A stretch of DNA of 64,000 nt from Methanosarcina sp. MTP4. Lineage in GTDB: Archaea > Halobacteriota > Methanosarcinia > Methanosarcinales > Methanosarcinaceae. Each line of letters starts with the position of its first letter. Positions within the stretch are counted from its first letter, which is position 1. Position numbers and translations under genes: made by a program. Shown here one piece after another: positions 34,019-47,475 of the stretch. Location of the stretch: contig NZ_CP009505.1 of the NCBI RefSeq assembly GCF_000970045.1, positions 1,488,001-1,552,000 on the forward strand, written 5' to 3'. Below the pieces are notes generated by a model that did not search any database, had not been told where the DNA came from, and worked only from the letters and a program-made list of their open reading frames with translations.

Positions 34019-34366
34019 ATGAGGCATATTTCTATTTTAGTCTTAGTTTTAGTTCTTTTGGCATGTTCATTTGTTGGTTGTATTGATGAAGCAGGAATTG
34101 TTGTTGTACAGGATAGATGTGAGTCTTCTTTTGATTTATCTAAAGGAATTGTCTATCACGTTGATTTGTGGGTACAGAATGAAGGAAGCGTTTCAAAAAG
34201 TTCAAAAGTAACGGCGGAACTGTTAGTAGAAAACACTGGGGAAGTGCGAGATTCAGAAACTCAAATTGTAAATTTAGAACCAGGCGAAACCAAGCAAATA
34301 ACCCTTGTTCTTGATGGGGAAAGAAATATAGATTACGAATATACTTATTATGTTGATGGACTTTAA
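34019..34366 (+). CDS. Small lipoprotein of unknown function
   Basis: 115 residues. Residues 1-21 are a lipoprotein signal (basic MRH, hydrophobic core, FVGC lipobox), so the mature protein should be lipid-anchored outside at Cys21. The rest is a small beta-rich domain resembling FxLYD/DUF11-like extracytoplasmic folds (VQNEGSVSKSSKVTAELLVE, LEPGETKQITLVL). A TTTATATATG box about 29 nt upstream of ATG 34019 suggests a leaderless mRNA. Its low G+C and AT-ending codons differ from the neighbouring pyrG, which fits recent acquisition. Confidence 0.75.
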   Translation: MRHISILVLVLVLLACSFVGCIDEAGIVVVQDRCESSFDLSKGIVYHVDLWVQNEGSVSKSSKVTAELLVENTGEVRDSETQIVNLEPGETKQITLVLDGERNIDYEYTYYVDGL

Positions 34367-34445: not shown

Positions 34446-34501
34446 ATTTATAGGTTGAAATTTGGTAAATTATTTTTTTCCTTTAGAACCCGATACTTTA
34501 A

Positions 34502-34538
34502 AGTACTAATCCAAATTAGTACTAATCATGATTAGTAC
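34502..34538. promoter_or_regulatory. Double palindrome covering the start codon of the ATPase gene
   Basis: Two abutting inverted repeats share a half-site. The first is AGTACTAAT-CCAA-ATTAGTACT (34502-34523). The second is the perfect 20-mer GTACTAATCATGATTAGTAC (34519-34538), whose centre contains the ATG at 34528. A protein bound here would block both transcription and initiation. The same pair of sites occurs at 41431-41465 before a decayed start. Confidence 0.75.
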
Positions 34539-35907
34539 TTTTGTCGGCCGCGAGAAAGAACTCTCCCTCCTCGAAAAGGAATGGAAGAAAAAGCGAGGAA
34601 GCCTTATTGTGCTTTACGGCCGCCGCCGGATTGGAAAGACCCGCCTGCTGACCGAGTTTATCAGGGACAAACCGGGAGTTTTCTATGTCGGCGAAGATGT
34701 ATCTCCCCACATCCAGATCATGCGTTTCAGGGAGAAACTTGCCGAGTTCTTGGAGGACGAACTTCTTGGAAGCCTGGACTTCAGGGACTGGGACCAGCTT
34801 TTTGCTTATTTCACGAAAAATTTGCCGGAGGAGCGTTTCTACCTCTGCATCGATGAATTTTCCTACCTTATAAAAAACGACCGTAGCATTCTCAGCACCC
34901 TTCAAAAGTACTGGGACTCTGTCCTTTCGGGGTCAAACGTCTGCATCGTGCTTTCCGGGTCCATGCTCGGGCTCATGAGTGAGATGGTGCTTTCCCATGC
35001 ATCTCCGCTTTACGGGAGGCGAACCCGGGATATCCTCCTTGAAGGGCTTCCGTTTGCAGATGCCTGTAAGTTTCTGAATATGCCTTTTGAAGATACCCTG
35101 AAGACGTATATGACCCTCGGAGGGGTTCCCGAGTACCTGCTCAAGGCTTCGGAATATGGTTCCCTGGACGAATTCATCGAAAATGAGTTCTTTGACAGGT
35201 ACGGGTACTTTTATCGGGAACCTTACTTCATTATCTCGCAGGAATTCCGGGAACTCAAGACTTATTTTTCCATTCTGGACGCTGTTGCTTCCGGAAACAC
35301 GAAGCCGGGTGAAATTGCCAATTTCGTGGGCATGGAGGCCAGGAAGATCTACCCATATCTCGAAAACCTGATCCGCCTCGGTTTTCTGGAGCGCAGGGTT
35401 TCACTTTTCGGAAGTTCCAGAATGGGCATCTACCTTATAAAAGACCAGGTCTTCGACTTCTGGTTCAATTTCGTTTCCGCAAACAAGGAGGTTATCGAAA
35501 GGGACAGTCTGGAATTCAGGGCTGACCCTGAAGCCCTTAGAATGTATTTTGCCAGGAAATTCGAGACTTTTGTGGAGAAAGAATTCGTTCCTCTTCTTAT
35601 TCCGTCGGCTCTTCGCACTGGCAGGTGGTGGCACAGGAATGAGGAAATCGACGTTCTTGCCGTAAACGAGGCCGAGAATGCGATCACTTTTATCGAGTGC
35701 AAATGGCGAACCTTGAACAAAAAATCAGCAGAAAAATCCCTCGAAGCCCTTAAAAGAAAATCCCCTCTCGTAAGATGGAGGGACAGTTCCCGGAATGAAA
35801 TTTACGGGATTGTCGCAAGGAAAATCGATGGGAAAGGAGGGCTCAGGGAGAAAGGTTATCTGGTCTTTGACCTTGAAGACCTTGAGAAGGTAGTGTCTTG
35901 CCGTTAA
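34528..35907 (+). CDS. Archaeal AAA ATPase fused to a DUF234 nuclease-like domain
   Basis: 459 residues. The N-terminal P-loop ATPase domain (about 1-220, PF01637 type) has the Walker A GRRRIGKTR near residue 31 and Walker B CIDEFSYL near 110. A winged-helix segment follows (about 250-300). The C-terminal DUF234 domain has EEIDVLAVNEAENAITFIEC followed by KW, a PD-(D/E)xK nuclease-like core (Asp...Glu-Cys-Lys). These ATPases are abundant in archaea and often mobile or regulatory; no function is firmly known. The start ATG lies inside a palindrome, hinting at autoregulation. Confidence 0.87.
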   Translation: MISTFVGREKELSLLEKEWKKKRGSLIVLYGRRRIGKTRLLTEFIRDKPGVFYVGEDVSPHIQIMRFREKLAEFLEDELLGSLDFRDWDQLFAYFTKNLPEERFYLCIDEFSYLIKNDRSILSTLQKYWDSVLSGSNVCIVLSGSMLGLMSEMVLSHASPLYGRRTRDILLEGLPFADACKFLNMPFEDTLKTYMTLGGVPEYLLKASEYGSLDEFIENEFFDRYGYFYREPYFIISQEFRELKTYFSILDAVASGNTKPGEIANFVGMEARKIYPYLENLIRLGFLERRVSLFGSSRMGIYLIKDQVFDFWFNFVSANKEVIERDSLEFRADPEALRMYFARKFETFVEKEFVPLLIPSALRTGRWWHRNEEIDVLAVNEAENAITFIECKWRTLNKKSAEKSLEALKRKSPLVRWRDSSRNEIYGIVARKIDGKGGLREKGYLVFDLEDLEKVVSCR

Positions 35908-37028: not shown

Positions 37029-40000
37029 TTATGCCATACATGCTTCAAAGGAGACGTCCCTGCACAGCAGTTCCGCCTGTTTAAGGATGCTCTCGGTCGC
37101 AAGTTTCCGCTTGTCGGGGGGATATCCGTATTTTTTCAGCAGCCGCTTTACGCTGATCCTCATTTTTGCCTGGATATTTTTCCGGAGGGTCCAGTCGATG
37201 CCTGCGTTCTTCCTTATGATGCCGACGAGTTCCGCCGCCATGAGCCTTAAGGTCTCATTGCCAAGGACTTCCACGGCACTTTCATTGTCGGCAAGGGCAT
37301 CGTAAAAGGCGATTTCTTCTTCGCTGAGGCCCAGTTCCTCGCCCCTTTTGTCGGCTTCGCTGATTTTCTTTGCCAGGTCGAGGAGTTCTTCGATGACCTG
37401 AACGGTATCAATGCCCCGGTTTTTGTATTCGTTGATTGCCCGCTCAAGCATTTCGGCAAAGGACTTTCCCTGGATAAAGTTCTTGCGGGAACGGGTTTTG
37501 ATCTCGTCGTAGAGCAGTTTTTTCAGGACTTCATAGGCAAGGTTCTTCTGGGGCAGGTCCCGCACTTCGGCAAGGAAGTCTTCGGAGAGAATTGAGATGT
37601 CGGGTCTTTTTATTCCGACAAGGTCAAAGAAATCGATGATCTCTTTGTTGGCAATCGATTTTGAAACAAGTTCTTTTATTGCCGAATTCACTTCGTACTT
37701 TGATTTTGCAGGCTTCCTGTCCACCTTTACAAGGATGGCTCTTACAGCCTGGAAATATGCCACTTCATCCCTGATCCTGTCTGCCTCGGAATGCGGGACG
37801 GAAAGGGCAAAGGCTTTCGAAAGCTCGGTTACGTGCTGGATGAGGCGCTTTTTTTCCTGGGTCCTCTGGGCTTCGGACCTCCCCTTCGAAAGGATGAAAT
37901 CCGCCCCTTCCCTGACGATTCCGAGTTTTTCTTTCGGGGAAGCAGAAAAGATCCGCATGTAGTCAAAGCCGTAGAAAAGGTCCCGGACGATTTCGTACTT
38001 TTCGAGCATGAGCTCGACGGCTTCGTCCTTGTAGTCCGCAGGGCTGCCCCGGCCACCGCTTTTCGTGTAGTTTGCCATGGCGTACTTGAGGTCGTAGAGG
38101 AGGCCCACGTAGTCAACGATAAGGCCCCCAGGCTTGTCCATGAAGACCCGGTTTACGCGGGCAATAGCCTGCATAAGGTTGTGCCCCTGGAGCCATTTCA
38201 TGAAGTACATGGTATGCAGGCAGGGGGCGTCAAAACCGGTCAGCCACATATCGCAGACGATTACGAGCTTCAGGGGGTCTTCTGGGTCCTGCATCCTGTC
38301 CCGGATCTTTGTCCTGCGGCTTTTGTTCCTTATGTGCGGCTGTAAAAGCTCGTCATCCGCCGCGCTGCCGGTGATGATCACTTTTATCCTGCCTTTCAGG
38401 TCGTCCCCGTCATGCCATTCCGGGCGAAGGGCTATTATTTCGTTGTAGAGGTCAGCACAGATCCGTCTGCTCATACAGACTATCATGCCTTTTCCGTCCA
38501 TTCCGTCTTCAAGCCTTTTCTCGAAGTGGAAGACTATGTCGGCTGCAAGTTTTTTCAGGTTATCTTCAGTTCCGACCACGGCTTCGAGCCTGGACCACTT
38601 TGACTTGAGCTTTTCTGCCTCGTAGAGTTCCCTGCCTTCCGTTATCATGGAAAATTCCGAGTCCAGGGTTTCCCTTGCTTCCTTTACCAGGTCCAGCTTT
38701 GAAAGCCGGCTTTCGTAGAAGATAGGGACCGTGACCCCGTCATTTACGGCCTGCTCGATGTCGTAGATGTCGATGTAGTCCCCGAAGACCGCAGGGGTGC
38801 TCCGGTCATCAAACTCAATGGGAGTCCCTGTAAAGCCGATAAAGGAGGCGCTGGGAAGGGCATCTCGCATGTGCTTTGCAAAGCCGTAGGAGATTTCCGC
38901 AACCTTTTCCTCTTCGACTTCTTTTTCCCGGAACTTCGCATCAAACCCGTACTGGCTCCTGTGGGCTTCGTCGGCGATAACAATGATATTCCGCCGTCCG
39001 GAAAGGGTCGGGAACCGGTCCTCTTCATTTTCGGGTGAGAACTTCTGGATCGTTGTAAACACAATCCCTCCCGAAGCCACTGCAAGGAGTTCCCGGAGCT
39101 GTGCCCTTGTCTCAGCCTGCACAGGCTGCTGGCGCAGGATCTCGCTGCAGCGGGCAAAATTATCGAAAAGCTGCCCGTCCAGGTCATTCCGGTCCGTGAT
39201 CACGACAATGGTCGGGTTGTCAAGCCCGAGCACCAGCTTTCCCGCATAAAAGACCATGGAAAGGCTCTTTCCCGACCCCTGCGTATGCCAGATGACCCCG
39301 CACTTCCGGTCCCCTTCGGGCATGGAAGCAAGCTTCGTCTTCTCCACAGCCCTGTTCACGGCGTGGTACTGGTGGTACCGCGCAAGTTTCTTGATAAGCT
39401 TCCCCCGGTCGTCCTCAAAAACAATAAAGTGCCTGACCAGGTCTATCAGAATCTCAGGCCTGCACATCCCCCGGAAGAGCACCTCCATGGGCGGCACCTT
39501 AAACTCCGCAAGCTTTTCCCCGTCAACCGTCTTCCAGGGCACGAACCATTCCCGGTTCGAAGTAAGCGTCCCTGCCATCGCTTCCTGCCCGTCACTGATA
39601 ATCAGGAAAGCGTTGTAGCGAAAGAGCGTCGGAATCTCTTTTTTGTAAGTCTGGAACTGCTTATAGGCATCCCAGACAATCTCCTCGTCCTCATACCCGT
39701 TTTCCTCATCGGGACGCTTTAACTCAACCACAACAAGGGGTAGCCCGTTCACAAAAAGCACGATATCAGGGCGCCTTTCGTTTCCGTCCTCTATAACGGT
39801 AAACTGGTTGACCGCCAGAAACTCGTTTTCCTCAGGCTCCGCAAAGTCAAAAAGCCAGACCTTATCATAAACCGTTTCCCCGTCTTTCCCCTGATATTCC
39901 ACATCAACCCCGTTTACCAGCATCTCGTGAAAAGCCCGGTTGTTGTGTATGAGGTCCTGGCTCTCTTCCCGAAGCACCTTTTTTATTGCTTCTTCCCTCG

Positions 40001-40199
40001 CTTCTTTCGGGATCCCCTCGTTCAATTTCTCTACGGCAGCCCGGAGCCTGTGGGGCAGAATGACGGTCCCGAAGTTTTCCCTTTCGGCATCCGGCGTATC
40101 AGGAGCAATGTCAGGACCGTAAAGGTACCCGTAGCCAAGCTCGGAGAGGATTTCAAGGGCCGCTTCTTCTACTTCGGATTCGGGGATGATTGCCGGGAT
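37029..40199 (-). CDS. hsdR: Type I restriction enzyme, endonuclease/translocase subunit R
   Basis: About 1056 residues. The nuclease core is [20 protein letters not shown] (PD-ExK), followed by a superfamily 2 helicase with Walker [10 protein letters not shown] and DEAH box [10 protein letters not shown]. HsdR translocates DNA and cuts unmethylated targets as part of HsdR2M2S. The conserved N-terminal segment ([20 protein letters not shown]) lies upstream of any ATG, GTG or TTG. An AAGGAG site at about 40207-40212 is ideally spaced for a start at 40199, but that codon is ATC. A TTG at 40025 would cut off 58 conserved residues. So either initiation is non-canonical or the start codon was lost. 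Confidence 0.85.
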
Positions 40200-40410
40200 G
40201 TTAATTTCTCCTTTTCTGGTTTGTCAGGTTTTTGCCAGGTTTTGTCCTTTTTTGCATTTCTAAAAGCAGGCTTTCGCTAAAGAGTGCACTTTGGCCATTA
40301 AAACCTGAGTGTAAATATTATAATTGTGTATCCCTTTAAATTTATTTAAACATAGCTGTTTGGATGGAACTCATCAGCCGGTGTGTGCAGGTGTTAGTCT
40401 AAAAGCAGGG

Positions 40411-40556
40411 CAGCCTTATTGGGTGTCTTCACGGTGTCTTGTCACGCTCGACGAAGGAGAGCGGCTTTTCCCAAAAATTAATAATTGAAGAAGAGAATCG
40501 GTTAAAAACGGCATAGTTTTTTTAATATATTTCTTGTGTCGGCGGCCCCCCACCAA
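40411..40556 (+). repeat. Dispersed hairpin element, full-length copy
   Basis: The core CGCTC...GAGCG hairpin (40445-40463) is preceded by GGTGTCTTCACGGTGTCTTG and followed by GGCTTTTCC, and about 60 bp later by TTTTTTAATATATTTCTT and GTCGGCGGCCCCCCACCAA. The copy at 42138-42272 matches along the whole length. Other copies share only the core and upstream part. The rest of 40200-40616 has no gene. Confidence 0.8.
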
Positions 40557-40616: not shown

Positions 40617-41354
40617 GTGAGTATTGAACCATACTTTGAGGAAGCTATGAAGACTATAGACACAGTATTCAAAGAGTTTCTTGATGAATATCGCCAGTGC
40701 CTGAACCCTGATCCTTATGGCGATTATGAAGATGTGATTGATCTTTTCACAGAGTTTCTTAACAGCCGTGCTTATCTTTTCCTGAGTGTAAGAGACGAAG
40801 CGAATTTCAAAGCCCTGCACAGGGAAGAAGGCAAGGAGTACTGTGAAATCTTCGGGCCCGGGTACATCGGAGATTCCGAAGTGGAAGCATTCCTCAGCTA
40901 TGACCTGGTCAGGAATGTGCTTTTAGATATTGATTCCCTGAAGGCTGCTGTAAAAGTCATCTACGACCTCATTGAATGGACGCACGCTAGGGGTTACATG
41001 GCTGATGAGATTTATGAGGAAACCGAAAAGGATGTCAGGGAACTCACACCTGACGTCCCCGCAGCCAAAGAACTCGCCCTCCTACTCCTGAACTATGTTG
41101 ACTCCCATCCTGCTAAAAAATACACACGCAGGCTCTCTGGCTACTTCGAGATTGAAAAAATCGAACCCGGCAAACTATGGCTTTATGAGTACTATACATT
41201 GGGACAGACTGTAGGCCCTGTTATCGTTTCCCGGGAAATCAGCTCAAAAGCAAAAGTCGGCTGGACCGTCTATCTAGCTGTAGGAAAAACAGGTGAAACC
41301 TGGCAGCTCCTGCTTGCAGGCCTCGCATACCCCCGCTTTTCCGGGGAGCTTTGA
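40617..41354 (+). CDS. Conserved-looking protein of unknown function
   Basis: 245 residues starting at GTG 40617 (MSIEPYFEEA) or perhaps at ATG 40647 behind GAGGA. The first 150 residues are acidic and helical (YEDVIDLFTEFLNSRAYLFL). The last 60 are beta-rich (GKLWLYEYYTLGQTVGPVIV...WQLLLAGLAYPRF). I recognise no family, catalytic motif or membrane segment. It lies on the opposite strand to hsdR, with a dispersed hairpin element in between. Coding bias resembles the core genes, so it is probably expressed. Confidence 0.7.
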   Translation: MSIEPYFEEAMKTIDTVFKEFLDEYRQCLNPDPYGDYEDVIDLFTEFLNSRAYLFLSVRDEANFKALHREEGKEYCEIFGPGYIGDSEVEAFLSYDLVRNVLLDIDSLKAAVKVIYDLIEWTHARGYMADEIYEETEKDVRELTPDVPAAKELALLLLNYVDSHPAKKYTRRLSGYFEIEKIEPGKLWLYEYYTLGQTVGPVIVSREISSKAKVGWTVYLAVGKTGETWQLLLAGLAYPRFSGEL

Positions 41355-41430
41355 ATATCGAACTTTGAATATCGAACTTCGAACTTCTTGAGATACACCG
41401 GGGATCTCCCATGGCTTTTGCATCTCAAAA

Positions 41431-41491
41431 TACTAATCAAAAATAGTACTAATCGTGATTAGTACAGATGACGTGAAAGTCTAATGTTACT
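41431..41491 (+). pseudogene. Decayed 5' end of a second ATPase-type gene with its palindromic operator
   Basis: TACTAATC..TAGTACTAATC..GATTAGTAC (palindrome 41446-41465) repeats the site at 34502-34538. In the equivalent position GTG ATT AGT ACA reads M-I-S-T, as in the intact ATPase (MIST), but the frame stops after about nine codons and the rest of the gene is absent. This is what remains of a paralogue removed by deletion or recombination. Confidence 0.6.
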
Positions 41492-41638
41492 TGTTTGATG
41501 TTTCTTTGATCGAGCTTCCGGTATGGCTATTGTTCGTTTTCACCATTACCTATTTCTAACATATATTTCATGTAAGTTCAATTATCACCTTCCTCACATC
41601 GAGTATTATAAAAATAACAGAATTAAGGGGAGCTGTTT

Positions 41639-41899
41639 ATGAACGATGAAGAAATTCTCAATCTTATCCGGACTAACCCGGAGGCTGCTGTTTCCTTAAT
41701 TGAGGAGCTTGAAGCCAAAAAAATGAAACTTAAAGCCAAAAAAGAGAAGCTTGAAGCCGAAAATAGAACTCTTAAAGCCGAACAAGAAACCCTTGATGCT
41801 GAAAACAGAACTCTTTTTATAAGAAAAGAAATTCTCGAAGCCATGAATGGGAAACTTGATCCCATTAGCATCGAACTTAGGAAACGAATACTGAGCTAA
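41639..41899 (+). CDS. Coiled-coil protein, likely relic of an IS66-type transposase N-terminus
   Basis: 86 residues from ATG 41639, which has a clear AAGGGGAG site. The first 24 residues (MNDEEILNLIRTNPEAAVSL) resemble the start of IS66-family transposases, where NPEAA/GPEAV-type helices precede a leucine-rich coiled coil. The rest is a long coiled coil made of near-repeats (KLKAKKEKLEAENRTLKAEQ). The zinc-finger and catalytic parts of a transposase are missing, so it is a truncated remnant or has been kept as a small coiled-coil protein. Confidence 0.6.
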   Translation: MNDEEILNLIRTNPEAAVSLIEELEAKKMKLKAKKEKLEAENRTLKAEQETLDAENRTLFIRKEILEAMNGKLDPISIELRKRILS

Positions 41900-41942
41900 C
41901 TGGTTTACGTTTCCTCCATTTTTAGAATCGGGTGCCACGAAC

Positions 41943-41999
41943 GAAAACTAGGCATAGCTTTTTTAATATATTTTTTGAGTCGGCGGCTCCCCACCAACC
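41943..41999 (+). repeat. Dispersed hairpin element, 3' part only
   Basis: AGGCATAGCTTTTTTAATAT...GTCGGCGGCTCCCCACCAAC matches the downstream half of the element at 40411-40556. The hairpin part is missing. The rest of 42000-42137 is without genes and contains TTCTCGAAnAC-type short repeats. Confidence 0.7.
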
Positions 42000-42137
42000 A
42001 CCCTAAAAAAAGTACAAACGGACCGGGGCTGTTCGAGAAAACGATCTGAATGAAAAGCCGACAGCCGTTTTTGGAGAAGTTTTTCTCGAAAACTGCGGAA
42101 GCCTTTATTGAGGATCTTTTTTCTCGAAGAACGAGAC

Positions 42138-42272
42138 ATCCGTATTAGGTGTATTCACGGTGTCTTGTCACGCTCGACGAAGGAGAGCGGCTTTTTCCGA
42201 AAATCCATAACTGAATAGTAGCACAGACAAAAGGCGTATATATTTTTAAATATATTTCTTATGTTGGCAGCC
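42138..42272 (+). repeat. Dispersed hairpin element, full-length copy
   Basis: Core CGCTCGACGAAGGAGAGCG at 42171-42189, preceded by TATTCACGGTGTCTTGTCA and followed by the AT-rich TATTTTTAAATATATTTCTT part. Same orientation as 40411-40556. Confidence 0.8.
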
Positions 42273-42346
42273 TGCAAAATCTAGACTTTATCCGCAAATT
42301 CTTCATTTGCTATAAAAAAGAAAACATATTATTTGAAGATAAATGA

Positions 42347-42748
42347 CTATTTTTTTGAAGGAATTTTTTTGCCCTCTTCAATCGCAATTTTTCTTCCAAA
42401 GTATTCCAACATGCCATTTAATGTCCAATTATATTGTTGATGGCATCCACGTTTCAATCCTATTTCCCATGCATTTTTATGCAAGTCTTTAATTCTCTCT
42501 ATTAAATCCATACTTTGTGCATTTTTATACATTAATGGTCCGGCTTTACCTGCGTTCTTACCAATCATTTCTTTGCCAAGATATCCTAGCATCCCGGCGT
42601 AAGTCCACGAATTGGGACCATGAAGCCTTTTTTGCAAACCTTCTTCCCATGTAATTTCGCATAACTTTTTGATATCTTCAACTAATCCCATTTGTTGTGC
42701 GACTTCGTACATTATTTTGCCAGAACATCCCTCTTTATCATACATCAT
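42347..42748 (-). CDS. Two-repeat protein of unknown function
   Basis: 133 residues formed by two homologous repeats of about 58 residues (about 10-68 and 69-126). Shared pattern: G.LMY..AQ.M.L.E.IK.L, then WE.GL.R, then W.Y.GML.Y.G..I. The repeats are helical and rich in Trp, Tyr and Cys; no known motif is recognised. It lies in the hsd island on the same strand as hsdR and hsdS. Start at ATG 42748 (MMYDKEG) or the next codon. Confidence 0.65.
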   Translation of the reverse strand: MMYDKEGCSGKIMYEVAQQMGLVEDIKKLCEITWEEGLQKRLHGPNSWTYAGMLGYLGKEMIGKNAGKAGPLMYKNAQSMDLIERIKDLHKNAWEIGLKRGCHQQYNWTLNGMLEYFGRKIAIEEGKKIPSKK

Positions 42749-42850
42749 AAATCTTCCCGCTTAGTTAAAAAATTAAGTAATTCTTCATTGCATCTTACAT
42801 TCTTATTTTCCTCTATGCAATTTTACCCTGTTTTCAATTATACTTTTTCA

Positions 42851-42972
42851 GGCTCTGTAGAAAACCTGTATTAATCAGTTGCAAGAGGCTGAAAATAAAT
42901 ACGTGAAATCATATCAATCCATTCAGTTCAAATTAATGGATATTCTTTATTTCAGAGGATTTCTACAGAGCC
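42851..42972. mobile_element. MITE-like element, 122 bp
   Basis: Terminal inverted repeats GGCTCTGTAGAAAACCTGTA and, at the other end, the reverse complement GGCTCTGTAGAAATCCTCTG. The same ends occur at 20931-21049. CA dinucleotides flank both sides. It lies 13 bp from the end of the GIY-YIG/HEPN/TPR gene. Confidence 0.65.
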
Positions 42973-42984
42973 CATTTTTGATGT

Positions 42985-45030
42985 TCACAATGTCCTCTTA
43001 TAAACTTTCTCAGCTTCCTTTTCTCTCCCAAGATTATAAAGGACATCAATCTTTTTGTACAAGGCATCTATATTTTCCTGATTAATTTCCAAAACTTTAT
43101 CCAATGCTTTCAAGGCTTCCTCATAACTTTCAAGCCATGAATAAATCATGCTTTTGATAAACCAGGAATTTTCATCATTTGGATCGATAGCTATGTTGAG
43201 AGCTTTCTTAAATACAGCAAGGCTCTCATCATATTGACCAAATTCATCATAAATAATTCCCAGATTATACCAAGCTTCTATATTTTCAGGGTAAATTTCA
43301 AGTGATTTTTCAGCTGCTTTTTTCGCTTTTTTGTATCTTCGGAGTTCTGACAGAATTACACCTTTATGACTCCAGGCTTCAGCATAATTCTCGTCTATTT
43401 CCAGCGCTTTTTCAACAGCTCTCAGGGCTTTTTTATGCTGCCCCAAATTTCCAAGAATGATTCCTTTATCCAGCCATGCATCAGCCTTTTCAGCATAATA
43501 AATATCTTCCAACTTATTCAGTATTTTATTTGCCACATCGAGGAGGAAAGGAAATTCTTCAATGAGAGGAAGTCCTGGAAGATAAAAGTCCAGAGGATCA
43601 AAATCCTGGTCTTTATCAGGGTACCTGGCGTTCATGGCATGATTTTCAGTTAAAATAGAAAGAGAAGGTAAGCAGGTAAATATGTGGTATAGATCTAAAA
43701 TGTAGAGCAAAAAGGGGATTATAGTATCTTTTTCCATAAAATCAGGAATAGGTTTTTCCAATTCCCTTTCCATCCTCTCCAGTTCAGTATCTTCTATAAA
43801 GGGAGAATCCCGGAGTTCATTGAAATTCCTGATTTCATGTATCATTTTTGATGAATTTCGTTTCCACTCTTCTATTTCCTCATTTGTAAAAGAAATTTCC
43901 TTAATCTCTTTTTTTGAGATCTCATACTCCTGAGTCTCTACTTTCAATTTCTCGATAATCTCAAACATCAAAAACGGATTGCTGAAGTTTCCGGAGATTT
44001 CATTCAAAAAGTTCAGATGTCCCTTAAATCCTTTTTCAACATCATCCAAGCTTTTCGGTTCTTCGCAGGATATTATTTTCATTATCTCGTTGATTCTTTG
44101 ATGTGTCCCTGCATCCTTTTTGAGTTGAGATAATTGAATGGCAGATCTATTTAGGGGCTTTTTAAATACTTCTGAACTTTTATGCCCAACACCCTTATCT
44201 CCTCCTTTTAATTGCTTCTCACTTATGAACCTCTGATTGAGTCCAAAAAATTTGGCACTTTTTTCCACTGCCTGTTGCAGGTAAAATACGGCTTGCATGT
44301 AGCACCCGTTTTCATAGAGGCACCTCGAAGCTTTGAGATCTTGCTGGGCAATGATAAGAAAAGTTCTGGAATGGTCTGAAGAGTTCATACCTTGATCCCT
44401 ATCAATTATTGACTTTATTAGCTGCATATCCTCATCAGACAACGGTTCTTTGTACAACTGATTTACCAACCATAGTCCGCTTGTCCTTATTTTTTCTTTT
44501 GGGGAATACAAGCCCGTCCAGTCTGATGAAGGTCTACATTTATCGCACAAGGAAACTGTAGAGATGATTTTGGCTTCTAACTCAAGCCTTTTTTCCTGAT
44601 CTTCTACTTCAATTACAACGAAGCTGAAGTTTTTCTGGATATACTGGCTTACTCTCTTTTCTGTTTCTTCCTGCTTCTCAGAGTCAATCAAACCAGCATT
44701 TTCTTTTTTTGCCTTCCTGCTGGTCAAATCTATTTCCCACTGCTCAAGAAATGGATCTTTATCCCTGTTCAGTAAAGCTCTTCCAACGTTCTTTCTAAAA
44801 ATGCTTCTATCCTTATTTTCATGGATAAAATGTTGCTCAAGCCGTGATCTTAACTGATCTTTACCCCTATGAGTCCCTATGCGAACGATTCTGTCCTTAC
44901 CGAGGGCAGTCTCCCCTGCTTCAAATAAGATGTATATTCCATTGTGAGGTATTTTTCTATCATCAAAGGGAAAGCTCATCCTTTCCATACCGTTAAGCCA
45001 TTGATGTAGTTGTTCGCATTTTTCACTCAT
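42985..45030 (-). CDS. GIY-YIG-like nuclease / HEPN / TPR fusion protein
   Basis: 681 residues. Residues about 28-190 form a divergent GIY-YIG domain: GIYILFE at 31-37, RIVRIGTHRG at 48-56, Arg63 in LRSRLEQHF, Glu152 in LEAKIIS, and the family tail IRTSGLWLVNQL. Residues about 218-330 resemble a HEPN domain (IIAQQDLKASRCLYENGCYM...LQQAVEKSAKFFG). Four to five TPR units fill about 500-675. GIY-YIG and HEPN domains both occur as nucleic-acid-degrading effectors in defence systems, with TPRs often as sensors. It overlaps the preceding DUF6884-like gene by 8 nt within the hsd locus, so a two-gene defence module is likely, but unproven. Confidence 0.8.
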   Translation of the reverse strand: MSEKCEQLHQWLNGMERMSFPFDDRKIPHNGIYILFEAGETALGKDRIVRIGTHRGKDQLRSRLEQHFIHENKDRSIFRKNVGRALLNRDKDPFLEQWEIDLTSRKAKKENAGLIDSEKQEETEKRVSQYIQKNFSFVVIEVEDQEKRLELEAKIISTVSLCDKCRPSSDWTGLYSPKEKIRTSGLWLVNQLYKEPLSDEDMQLIKSIIDRDQGMNSSDHSRTFLIIAQQDLKASRCLYENGCYMQAVFYLQQAVEKSAKFFGLNQRFISEKQLKGGDKGVGHKSSEVFKKPLNRSAIQLSQLKKDAGTHQRINEIMKIISCEEPKSLDDVEKGFKGHLNFLNEISGNFSNPFLMFEIIEKLKVETQEYEISKKEIKEISFTNEEIEEWKRNSSKMIHEIRNFNELRDSPFIEDTELERMERELEKPIPDFMEKDTIIPFLLYILDLYHIFTCLPSLSILTENHAMNARYPDKDQDFDPLDFYLPGLPLIEEFPFLLDVANKILNKLEDIYYAEKADAWLDKGIILGNLGQHKKALRAVEKALEIDENYAEAWSHKGVILSELRRYKKAKKAAEKSLEIYPENIEAWYNLGIIYDEFGQYDESLAVFKKALNIAIDPNDENSWFIKSMIYSWLESYEEALKALDKVLEINQENIDALYKKIDVLYNLGREKEAEKVYKRTL

Positions 45031-47359: not shown

Positions 47360-47404
47360 CTAACACACTCTCTTTTTCTGAGGACTTCTCTTTACAGCAT
47401 TTCT

Positions 47405-47475
47405 GAAAAGGCTGCTCTCCTTCGTCGAGCGTGACAAGACAGGTTAAATACGGCTATTCCGGTTGCCTCGTTTTC
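47405..47475 (-). repeat. Dispersed hairpin element, core copy on the minus strand
   Basis: GCTCTCCTTCGTCGAGCGTG followed by ACAAGACAG is the reverse complement of the element core (47413-47431). TATTCCGGTTGCCTCG nearby matches the copy at 51184-51248. It lies between hsdS-side and AlbA_2-side genes. Confidence 0.75.

Follow-up and report, generated by a model that had tools for sequence, protein, structure and literature searches.

The locus

The window analysed here, a stretch of 64,000 nucleotides from Methanosarcina sp. MTP4 (contig NZ_CP009505.1, positions 1,488,001 to 1,552,000), carries at its pyrG-lon locus a gene for an ATPase-nuclease of 459 residues with a DUF234 domain (34528..35907, forward strand). 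This gene begins inside an inverted repeat. The sequence GTACTAATCATGATTAGTAC, at 34519-34538, is a perfect 20-bp palindrome with the start codon ATG in its centre, and the pairing in fact extends to 22 bp (11/11 pairs). The preliminary description of this DNA, which had singled out this palindrome, had also reported a second inverted repeat beside it and a further copy of the double site some distance away; all three observations are borne out. The left partner lies at 34503-34522, differs from the right palindrome by 3 mismatches and overlaps it by 4 bases. The double site recurs at 41430-41465 (the 41431 copy), with a right palindrome at 41446-41465 that has a single mismatch, a left partner that fits less well and a GTG at 41455-41457 in the right centre; no gene follows there. 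The palindrome is real and far above chance expectation: with up to 3 mismatches allowed, the window holds three occurrences and 100 dinucleotide-shuffled versions of it gave none, and the whole 4.21-Mb genome, searched with the same tolerance, has no copy beyond those three.

Taken together, the two palindromes at the gene start form one 42-bp dyad (34500-34541; 18/21 pairs complementary), which we propose to be an operator. Its centre, at 34520.5, lies 7.5 nt ahead of the ATG (34528), and it ends inside the DUF234 gene. Because the site of this gene belongs to a class with CTAATC half-sites, we refer to its relatives as CTAATC-type operators; in that class, the window gene included, the dyad is centred at -7.5. 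A TATA-like box, TTTAAA, occupies 34497..34502 on the forward strand, that is -31 to -26 relative to the ATG. A 115-residue open reading frame (34019-34366), located between pyrG and the DUF234 gene, has no Pfam match and is present only in the window genome among four of its genus.

A predicted switch ATPase joined to a nuclease domain

The protein matches PF01637 (ATPase_2; 71.2 bits, cut-off 33.2) and PF03008 (DUF234; 67.6 bits, cut-off 22.5), and PADLOC assigns it to PDC-S27 (E 3e-45). Eight residues are invariant in an alignment of 40 proteins: G36, K37, D109 and E110, which we take to be the Walker residues, and E346, D375, E390 and K392, presumably the motif of a PD-(D/E)XK nuclease. 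The latter four lie in the DUF234 domain (residues 312-403, PD-(D/E)XK-like, encoded by 35461..35736, forward strand). An AlphaFold2 model built from the 40 aligned relatives (mean pLDDT 95, pTM 0.91) places a winged helix-turn-helix (wHTH) at residues 243-304, the third helix of which, residues 271-283, is the predicted recognition helix (codons at 35338..35376, forward strand), a prediction that draws on the model together with the operator covariation presented below. Foldseek finds its best matches in 2QEN (E 1.5e-13) and 2FNA (E 2.8e-12), and further ones in 6MFV, a STAND protein, in Apaf-1, in NLR resistosomes and in Orc/Cdc6. The predicted fold is that of a STAND switch ATPase with a winged helix, joined to a nuclease domain.

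PDC-S27 is an abundant archaeal defence candidate, its anti-phage role being putative. According to the main text of PMC12988326, it has 3503 members in Archaea, with an ATPase fused to a domain of the PD-(D/E)XK superfamily, and most PDCs have no experimental validation; the words 'promoter' and 'operator' do not appear in that main text, and its passages on PDC-S27 do not mention regulation. More generally, a search of the literature on the DUF234/PDC-S27 family, conducted mostly outside subscription journals, found no description of start-codon palindromes or of control of the gene.

Archaeal distribution of the CTAATC-type site

A degenerate pattern of the double site was searched over 84,980 species genomes, a collection from which the window genome's own records were possibly excluded. 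Near-consensus matches are found in 92 stretches and 99 sites, all archaeal. The hosts are members of the Methanosarcinales, Methanomicrobiales, Thermococcus, Archaeoglobi, Thermoplasmata, Caldarchaeum and Thaumarchaeota, as well as Aenigmatarchaeota, Woesearchaeota, Micrarchaeota, Nanoarchaeota and three Asgard groups. The palindrome had been suggested to mark the starts of DUF234-ATPase genes, and this is what 62 of the 99 sites do: 53 are the start of an intact DUF234 gene, with the start codon in the second centre, and 9 belong to genes cut by the end of a contig. Another 13 sites adjoin genes that are broken or displaced, and no gene is detectable at the remaining 24. In these 84,980 genomes, the palindrome is not widespread at unrelated positions, the outcome that had been put forward as counting against the association. 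No near-consensus double site is found in IMG/VR when the exact pattern is used, and spread of the site by viruses was set aside on that ground and because phage records gave 8 protein matches, all below 60% identity.

Two side observations concern the arrangement of these sites. Four loci carry an extra double site, placed 97-309 bp upstream of that at the gene start (L082, 2861 and 3067; L112, 3296 and 3513; L126, 3749 and 4058; L160, 6493 and 6590), and in three of the four the extra site has no start codon in its centre. These might be auxiliary operators for DNA looping, or the remains of tandem copies. Elsewhere, DUF234 genes or pieces of genes follow one another in the same direction and nearly abut (L156, 1388-5579; L153, 1362-2981; L102, 2575-4281); L156 has three of them, each with its own, different start palindrome.

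A family-wide dyad with variable letters

Gathered by protein similarity, DUF234 genes mostly begin in palindromes of other sequence. In all, we kept 178 DUF234 genes, 99 of them from PF03008 searches, after dropping those with no recognisable F..R anchor, truncated genes and identical N-termini. The PF03008 loci were 60 hand-picked places out of about 150 listed, plus 30 given ones, and removal of genes with no ATG or GTG near the anchor left 96 of the 99. Some genes come from genomes that had been picked for one CTAATC site; the other DUF234 genes of those genomes were not picked by site. Symmetry was measured on 127 genes, in two sets not selected for the site, which were reduced to 57 clusters below 60% identity; this cut and the operator classes are our own choice.

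Among the 57 representative proteins, Watson-Crick symmetry peaks at exactly -7.0 nt from the start codon (0.492, with 0.301 expected), the next best offsets giving 0.409 and 0.390. At least 9 of 17 pairs form at -7 in 28 of the 57 genes (49%), against 1.7% of 346 control genes. In the PF03008-selected set, half of the genes reach this level at -7 (48/96) and half stay below it (48/96), while at five other offsets 3, 1, 3, 9 and 1 of the 96 do so. The dyad is not a fixture of every member: some haloarchaeal DUF234 genes have it centred at -13, some family genes have none, and L018, a paralogue in the window genome, forms only 6/17 pairs. Three further paralogues of that genome (L014, L015, L017) have differing operators. 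Among 12 plasmid-borne relatives, 6 have a dyad equalled by at most 2 of 200 shuffles and 6 have no clear dyad; strong ones lie 19-30 nt upstream of the start in relatives from Methanocaldococcus (M.) jannaschii, Rhodothermus and Mesorhizobium. The bacterial ones, on the Rhodothermus marinus plasmid (L294, 16/17 pairs) and the Mesorhizobium plasmid (L297, 15/17), are near-perfect and both centred 19 nt upstream. Across a large family of suspected archaeal antiviral proteins, the design recurs while the palindrome changes with the type of protein.

The dyad at the core promoter

In archaeal promoters, the centre of the TATA box lies about 26-27 bp upstream of where transcription starts. We counted TATA-like boxes in 56 of the 57 clusters. 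One occurs within -46 to -25 in 30 of the 56 genes, with -31 or -30 as the commonest start and a clustering of the family's boxes at -31 to -29; the pattern fits only 23 of 50 CTAATC-type genes and these 30 of 56 family genes. With a TATA box at about -30, transcription would begin at the start codon or right beside it and, consequently, the left half of the dyad would fall outside the mRNA. Transcription of DUF234 genes is thus probably leaderless, as judged from promoter geometry. The dyad lies at the core promoter of the putative regulator's own gene, which is where an autoregulatory operator is expected.

Operator type covaries with the predicted recognition helix

Each protein type having its own palindrome, the letters of the operator can be compared with those of the protein. 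The comparison used 138 of 175 genes, those forming at least 8/17 pairs, and included the CTAATC genes selected by pattern. Operator similarity correlates with protein identity over residues 145-300 (rho 0.28-0.48 for all windows starting at residues 145-274), hardly with the nuclease end (residues 353-457, rho 0.03-0.11), and to an intermediate degree with the N-terminus of the ATPase, although the latter is closer to the operator along the DNA. A scan of single columns in 62 proteins below 60% identity puts residue 272 first (z 12.3), followed by 220 (11.2), 279 (10.1), 210, 275 and 276, all six exceeding the null maximum (95% level 4.99). Since residues 271-283 make up the third wHTH helix, four of these six columns share one face of the predicted recognition helix. 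The remaining two, 220 and 210, lie outside the wHTH; they covary strongly as well and may mark clades.

The correspondence can be read residue by residue. Proteins with TACTAATC operators have R272 in 48 of 49 cases, Y275 in 47 of 49 and P276 in all 49; those with GTTG..CAAC operators have K271 (21/22), S275 (21/22) and lysine or arginine at 276 (22/22); those with CGRA..TYCG operators have D273 (13/13) and K272 (12/13). With the CTAATC type removed, column 271 is still at the top (z 6.8, null 4.42) and residues 271-283 stand above the other columns (p 1.5e-5 below 80% identity, p 0.01 below 60%). Among pairs less than 38% identical, proteins matched to their nearest neighbour at six helix positions have 0.48 of the operator in common, against a baseline of 0.346 and at most 0.387 for random sixes of positions. 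At the strictest cut, 31 proteins below 45% identity, no column exceeds the null maximum, with 271, 272 and 275 among the top eight. Part of the covariation may come from shared descent rather than from function, as the two cannot be fully separated in these sequences. Because the type of palindrome tracks the recognition helix, the ATPase-nuclease family is itself the likely binder, in agreement with what the preliminary description had surmised.

A proposed autoregulatory operator

In our reading, which we regard as very probable, the double palindrome serves as an autoregulatory operator that each protein recognises through its own helix. The mRNA would be leaderless, with transcription driven by a TATA box some 30 bp before the ATG and starting at or near the start codon, and the operator would fill the space from the TATA box to codon 4. 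The ATPase-nuclease would bind there, probably as two dimers on four half-sites, making contact through the recognition helix of its own wHTH (R272, Y275, P276 and E279 in the window protein). Once bound, it would block access of TBP, TFB and the polymerase; it is repression rather than activation that we infer, a blockade that would keep a potentially dangerous nuclease at a low level. The overlap of operator and coding sequence would make the gene and its switch travel together between archaea. With its own helix-operator pair for each protein type, several paralogues could run independently in one genome, and the different operators of L014, L015 and L017 suggest that these paralogues of the window genome would stay independent. 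A nuclease that represses itself and is kept under tight control would suit the putative defence role that PMC12988326 proposes for PDC-S27.

Autoregulation is compatible with a further step, in which the operator is also an anchor on self-DNA that holds the nuclease inactive, release activating both expression and nuclease. We consider this extension possible, if unlikely: a switch-type ATPase, a wHTH and a nuclease are united in one polypeptide whose fold is near that of STAND, Apaf-1, NLR and Orc/Cdc6 proteins, but the domains could act separately. It is improbable, on the other hand, that the site is the operator of another, unlinked regulator and not of the gene's own product. Such a regulator would account for solo sites that persist in genomes where the subfamily gene was not found, G001, G003, G080 and G096 among them; against it, operator type follows the protein's own recognition helix across the family, a gene moving between phyla would rarely meet a foreign regulator able to serve it, and the gene-less 41431 copy is not conserved above its flanks.

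Gene-less copies and the question of integration

The 41431 copy had been described as a gene decayed after about nine codons, the survival of its palindrome being taken as a sign of function. Neither point holds up well. What follows the GTG at 41455 has only the letters of the palindrome in common with the DUF234 gene, and no DUF234 homology better than E 0.01 appears at 41301-43300 with 178 family queries; a dead gene at 41455 was rejected for this lack of homology beyond the palindrome. Orthologues of the copy exist in G003 and in G096, which is of another genus, and the gene is absent in all. In three pairwise comparisons, the identity of the site (0.97, 0.91, 0.91) ranks 47th, 54th and 121st of 504 windows, and selection on the gene-less site was discarded as an explanation, conservation there being not clearly above the surroundings. 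With no trace of a gene and conservation like that of the neighbourhood, the survival of the 41431 copy is weak evidence of function. Downstream of it, the intergenic stretch 41480-41640 is conserved between genera about as coding sequence is, and is possibly an unrecognised RNA or regulatory element.

Gene-less copies elsewhere are mostly scars of lost or broken genes. As illustrations, G110 (C70) has the start of a DUF234 gene joined to a piece of its end, G093 retains only the 3' half of the gene, with stops, followed by a site. Several of the sites that lack an intact or detectable gene, L111, L117, L096, L138 and L169 among them, retain the first codons before a stop, a frameshift or the contig end.

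We view as highly improbable the suggestion that the palindrome is a recombination or integration target, or the end of a mobile element, at which the gene enters and leaves genomes. The comparison of strains that had been proposed does find presence and absence at one place: the gene occupies the pyrG-lon locus in G000 and G002, while in G001 and G003 the site there is intact but no gene accompanies it. There are also solo sites and tandem copies, and the spread of the gene across archaeal phyla is patchy, as integration would have it. Yet G002, the most divergent of the four genomes by CODH, PyrG and Lon, carries the gene at this same locus; the outgroup having it, the gene-less state looks derived, and loss is simpler than two insertions. 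An empty site as the ancestral state, which an integration target would call for, is thus not what these four genomes give. In 42 of 44 intact genes of CTAATC type there is no second site in the 200 bp downstream of the stop, the other two preceding further sites; a homing target would not stay whole next to the gene, as this site does; neither TATA spacing nor covariation with the wHTH helix would be expected, and the site pattern is absent from IMG/VR contigs. A cassette model was not retained as first choice, for want of a flanking second site and because loss is more parsimonious.

Two observations on the surroundings stand apart from this question. A dispersed repeat of about 50-130 bp lies at 40401-40471, 42140-42215 and 47400-47456 of the window and is common to the G080, G093, G096, G001 and G003 loci; it looks like a small mobile or MITE-like element. 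In G080 (L043, 6142-6722), there are stretches that match the two ends of a long gene, a homologue of window 37029-40025 which we read as type I restriction-like; its middle is missing, and the stretches adjoin a gene-less double site.

DNA rather than RNA

As computed over the 57 proteins, the dyad is a DNA site and not an RNA element. An mRNA hairpin hiding the start codon and controlling translation is extremely improbable and was dropped: the start codon does lie inside the palindrome and G-U pairing reaches 47% at one position, an exception forced by the G of the start codon, but symmetry runs to the very centre, through positions that could not pair in a loop, G-U pairs are not in excess overall (0.087 observed against 0.097 expected), a TATA-like box near -30 would leave the left arm outside the transcript, and operator sequence covaries with the DNA-recognition helix. 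In some plasmid-borne relatives, moreover, the dyad is shifted upstream, which suits an element positioned by the promoter rather than by the coding sequence.

Comparison with known systems

The autoregulatory operator proposed here has partial counterparts. IniR of mycobacteria and MalT are STAND regulators which, as the window protein does, combine a switch ATPase with a DNA-binding domain. Both are activators of other genes and have no nuclease, whereas the window protein has one, and its proposed target is the start of its own gene. Archaeal repressors of the NrpR, Lrp and MDR1 types act at a palindromic operator that covers the transcription start, downstream of the TATA box; the operator in the window differs in that it includes the start codon and the first codons, and in that the proposed regulator is also a nuclease. 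In autoregulated toxin-antitoxin operons, the product itself reads several palindromes that span the promoter and the start of the gene. By contrast, the window system is a single gene, and a separate antitoxin was not seen. The best structural matches, the archaeal AAA+ ATPases SSO1545 (2FNA) and PAB2304 (2QEN), have about 350 residues, against 459 with the DUF234 end in the window protein, and are 18-21% identical to it; PMC5760070 contains a comparison likening the ATPase part of IniR to SSO1545.

Significance for the family

In the main text of PMC12988326, DUF234 proteins are among the commonest archaeal defence candidates. For each of them, the palindromes predict a DNA ligand and a mode of control, and they supply a code linking helix to operator. 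The operators also help in fixing gene starts, with a leaderless ATG in the dyad, and in exposing lost copies. A broader reading, which we offer tentatively and hold to be doubtful, is that of a pan-archaeal, partly bacterial family of NLR-like ATPase-nucleases, each anchored at the operator of its own start codon and kept there both repressed and inactive, until a viral trigger flips the ATPase, freeing promoter and nuclease. If that were true, diversified helix-operator pairs would keep the many paralogues of a cell orthogonal, and the whole family would have a readable DNA-recognition code.
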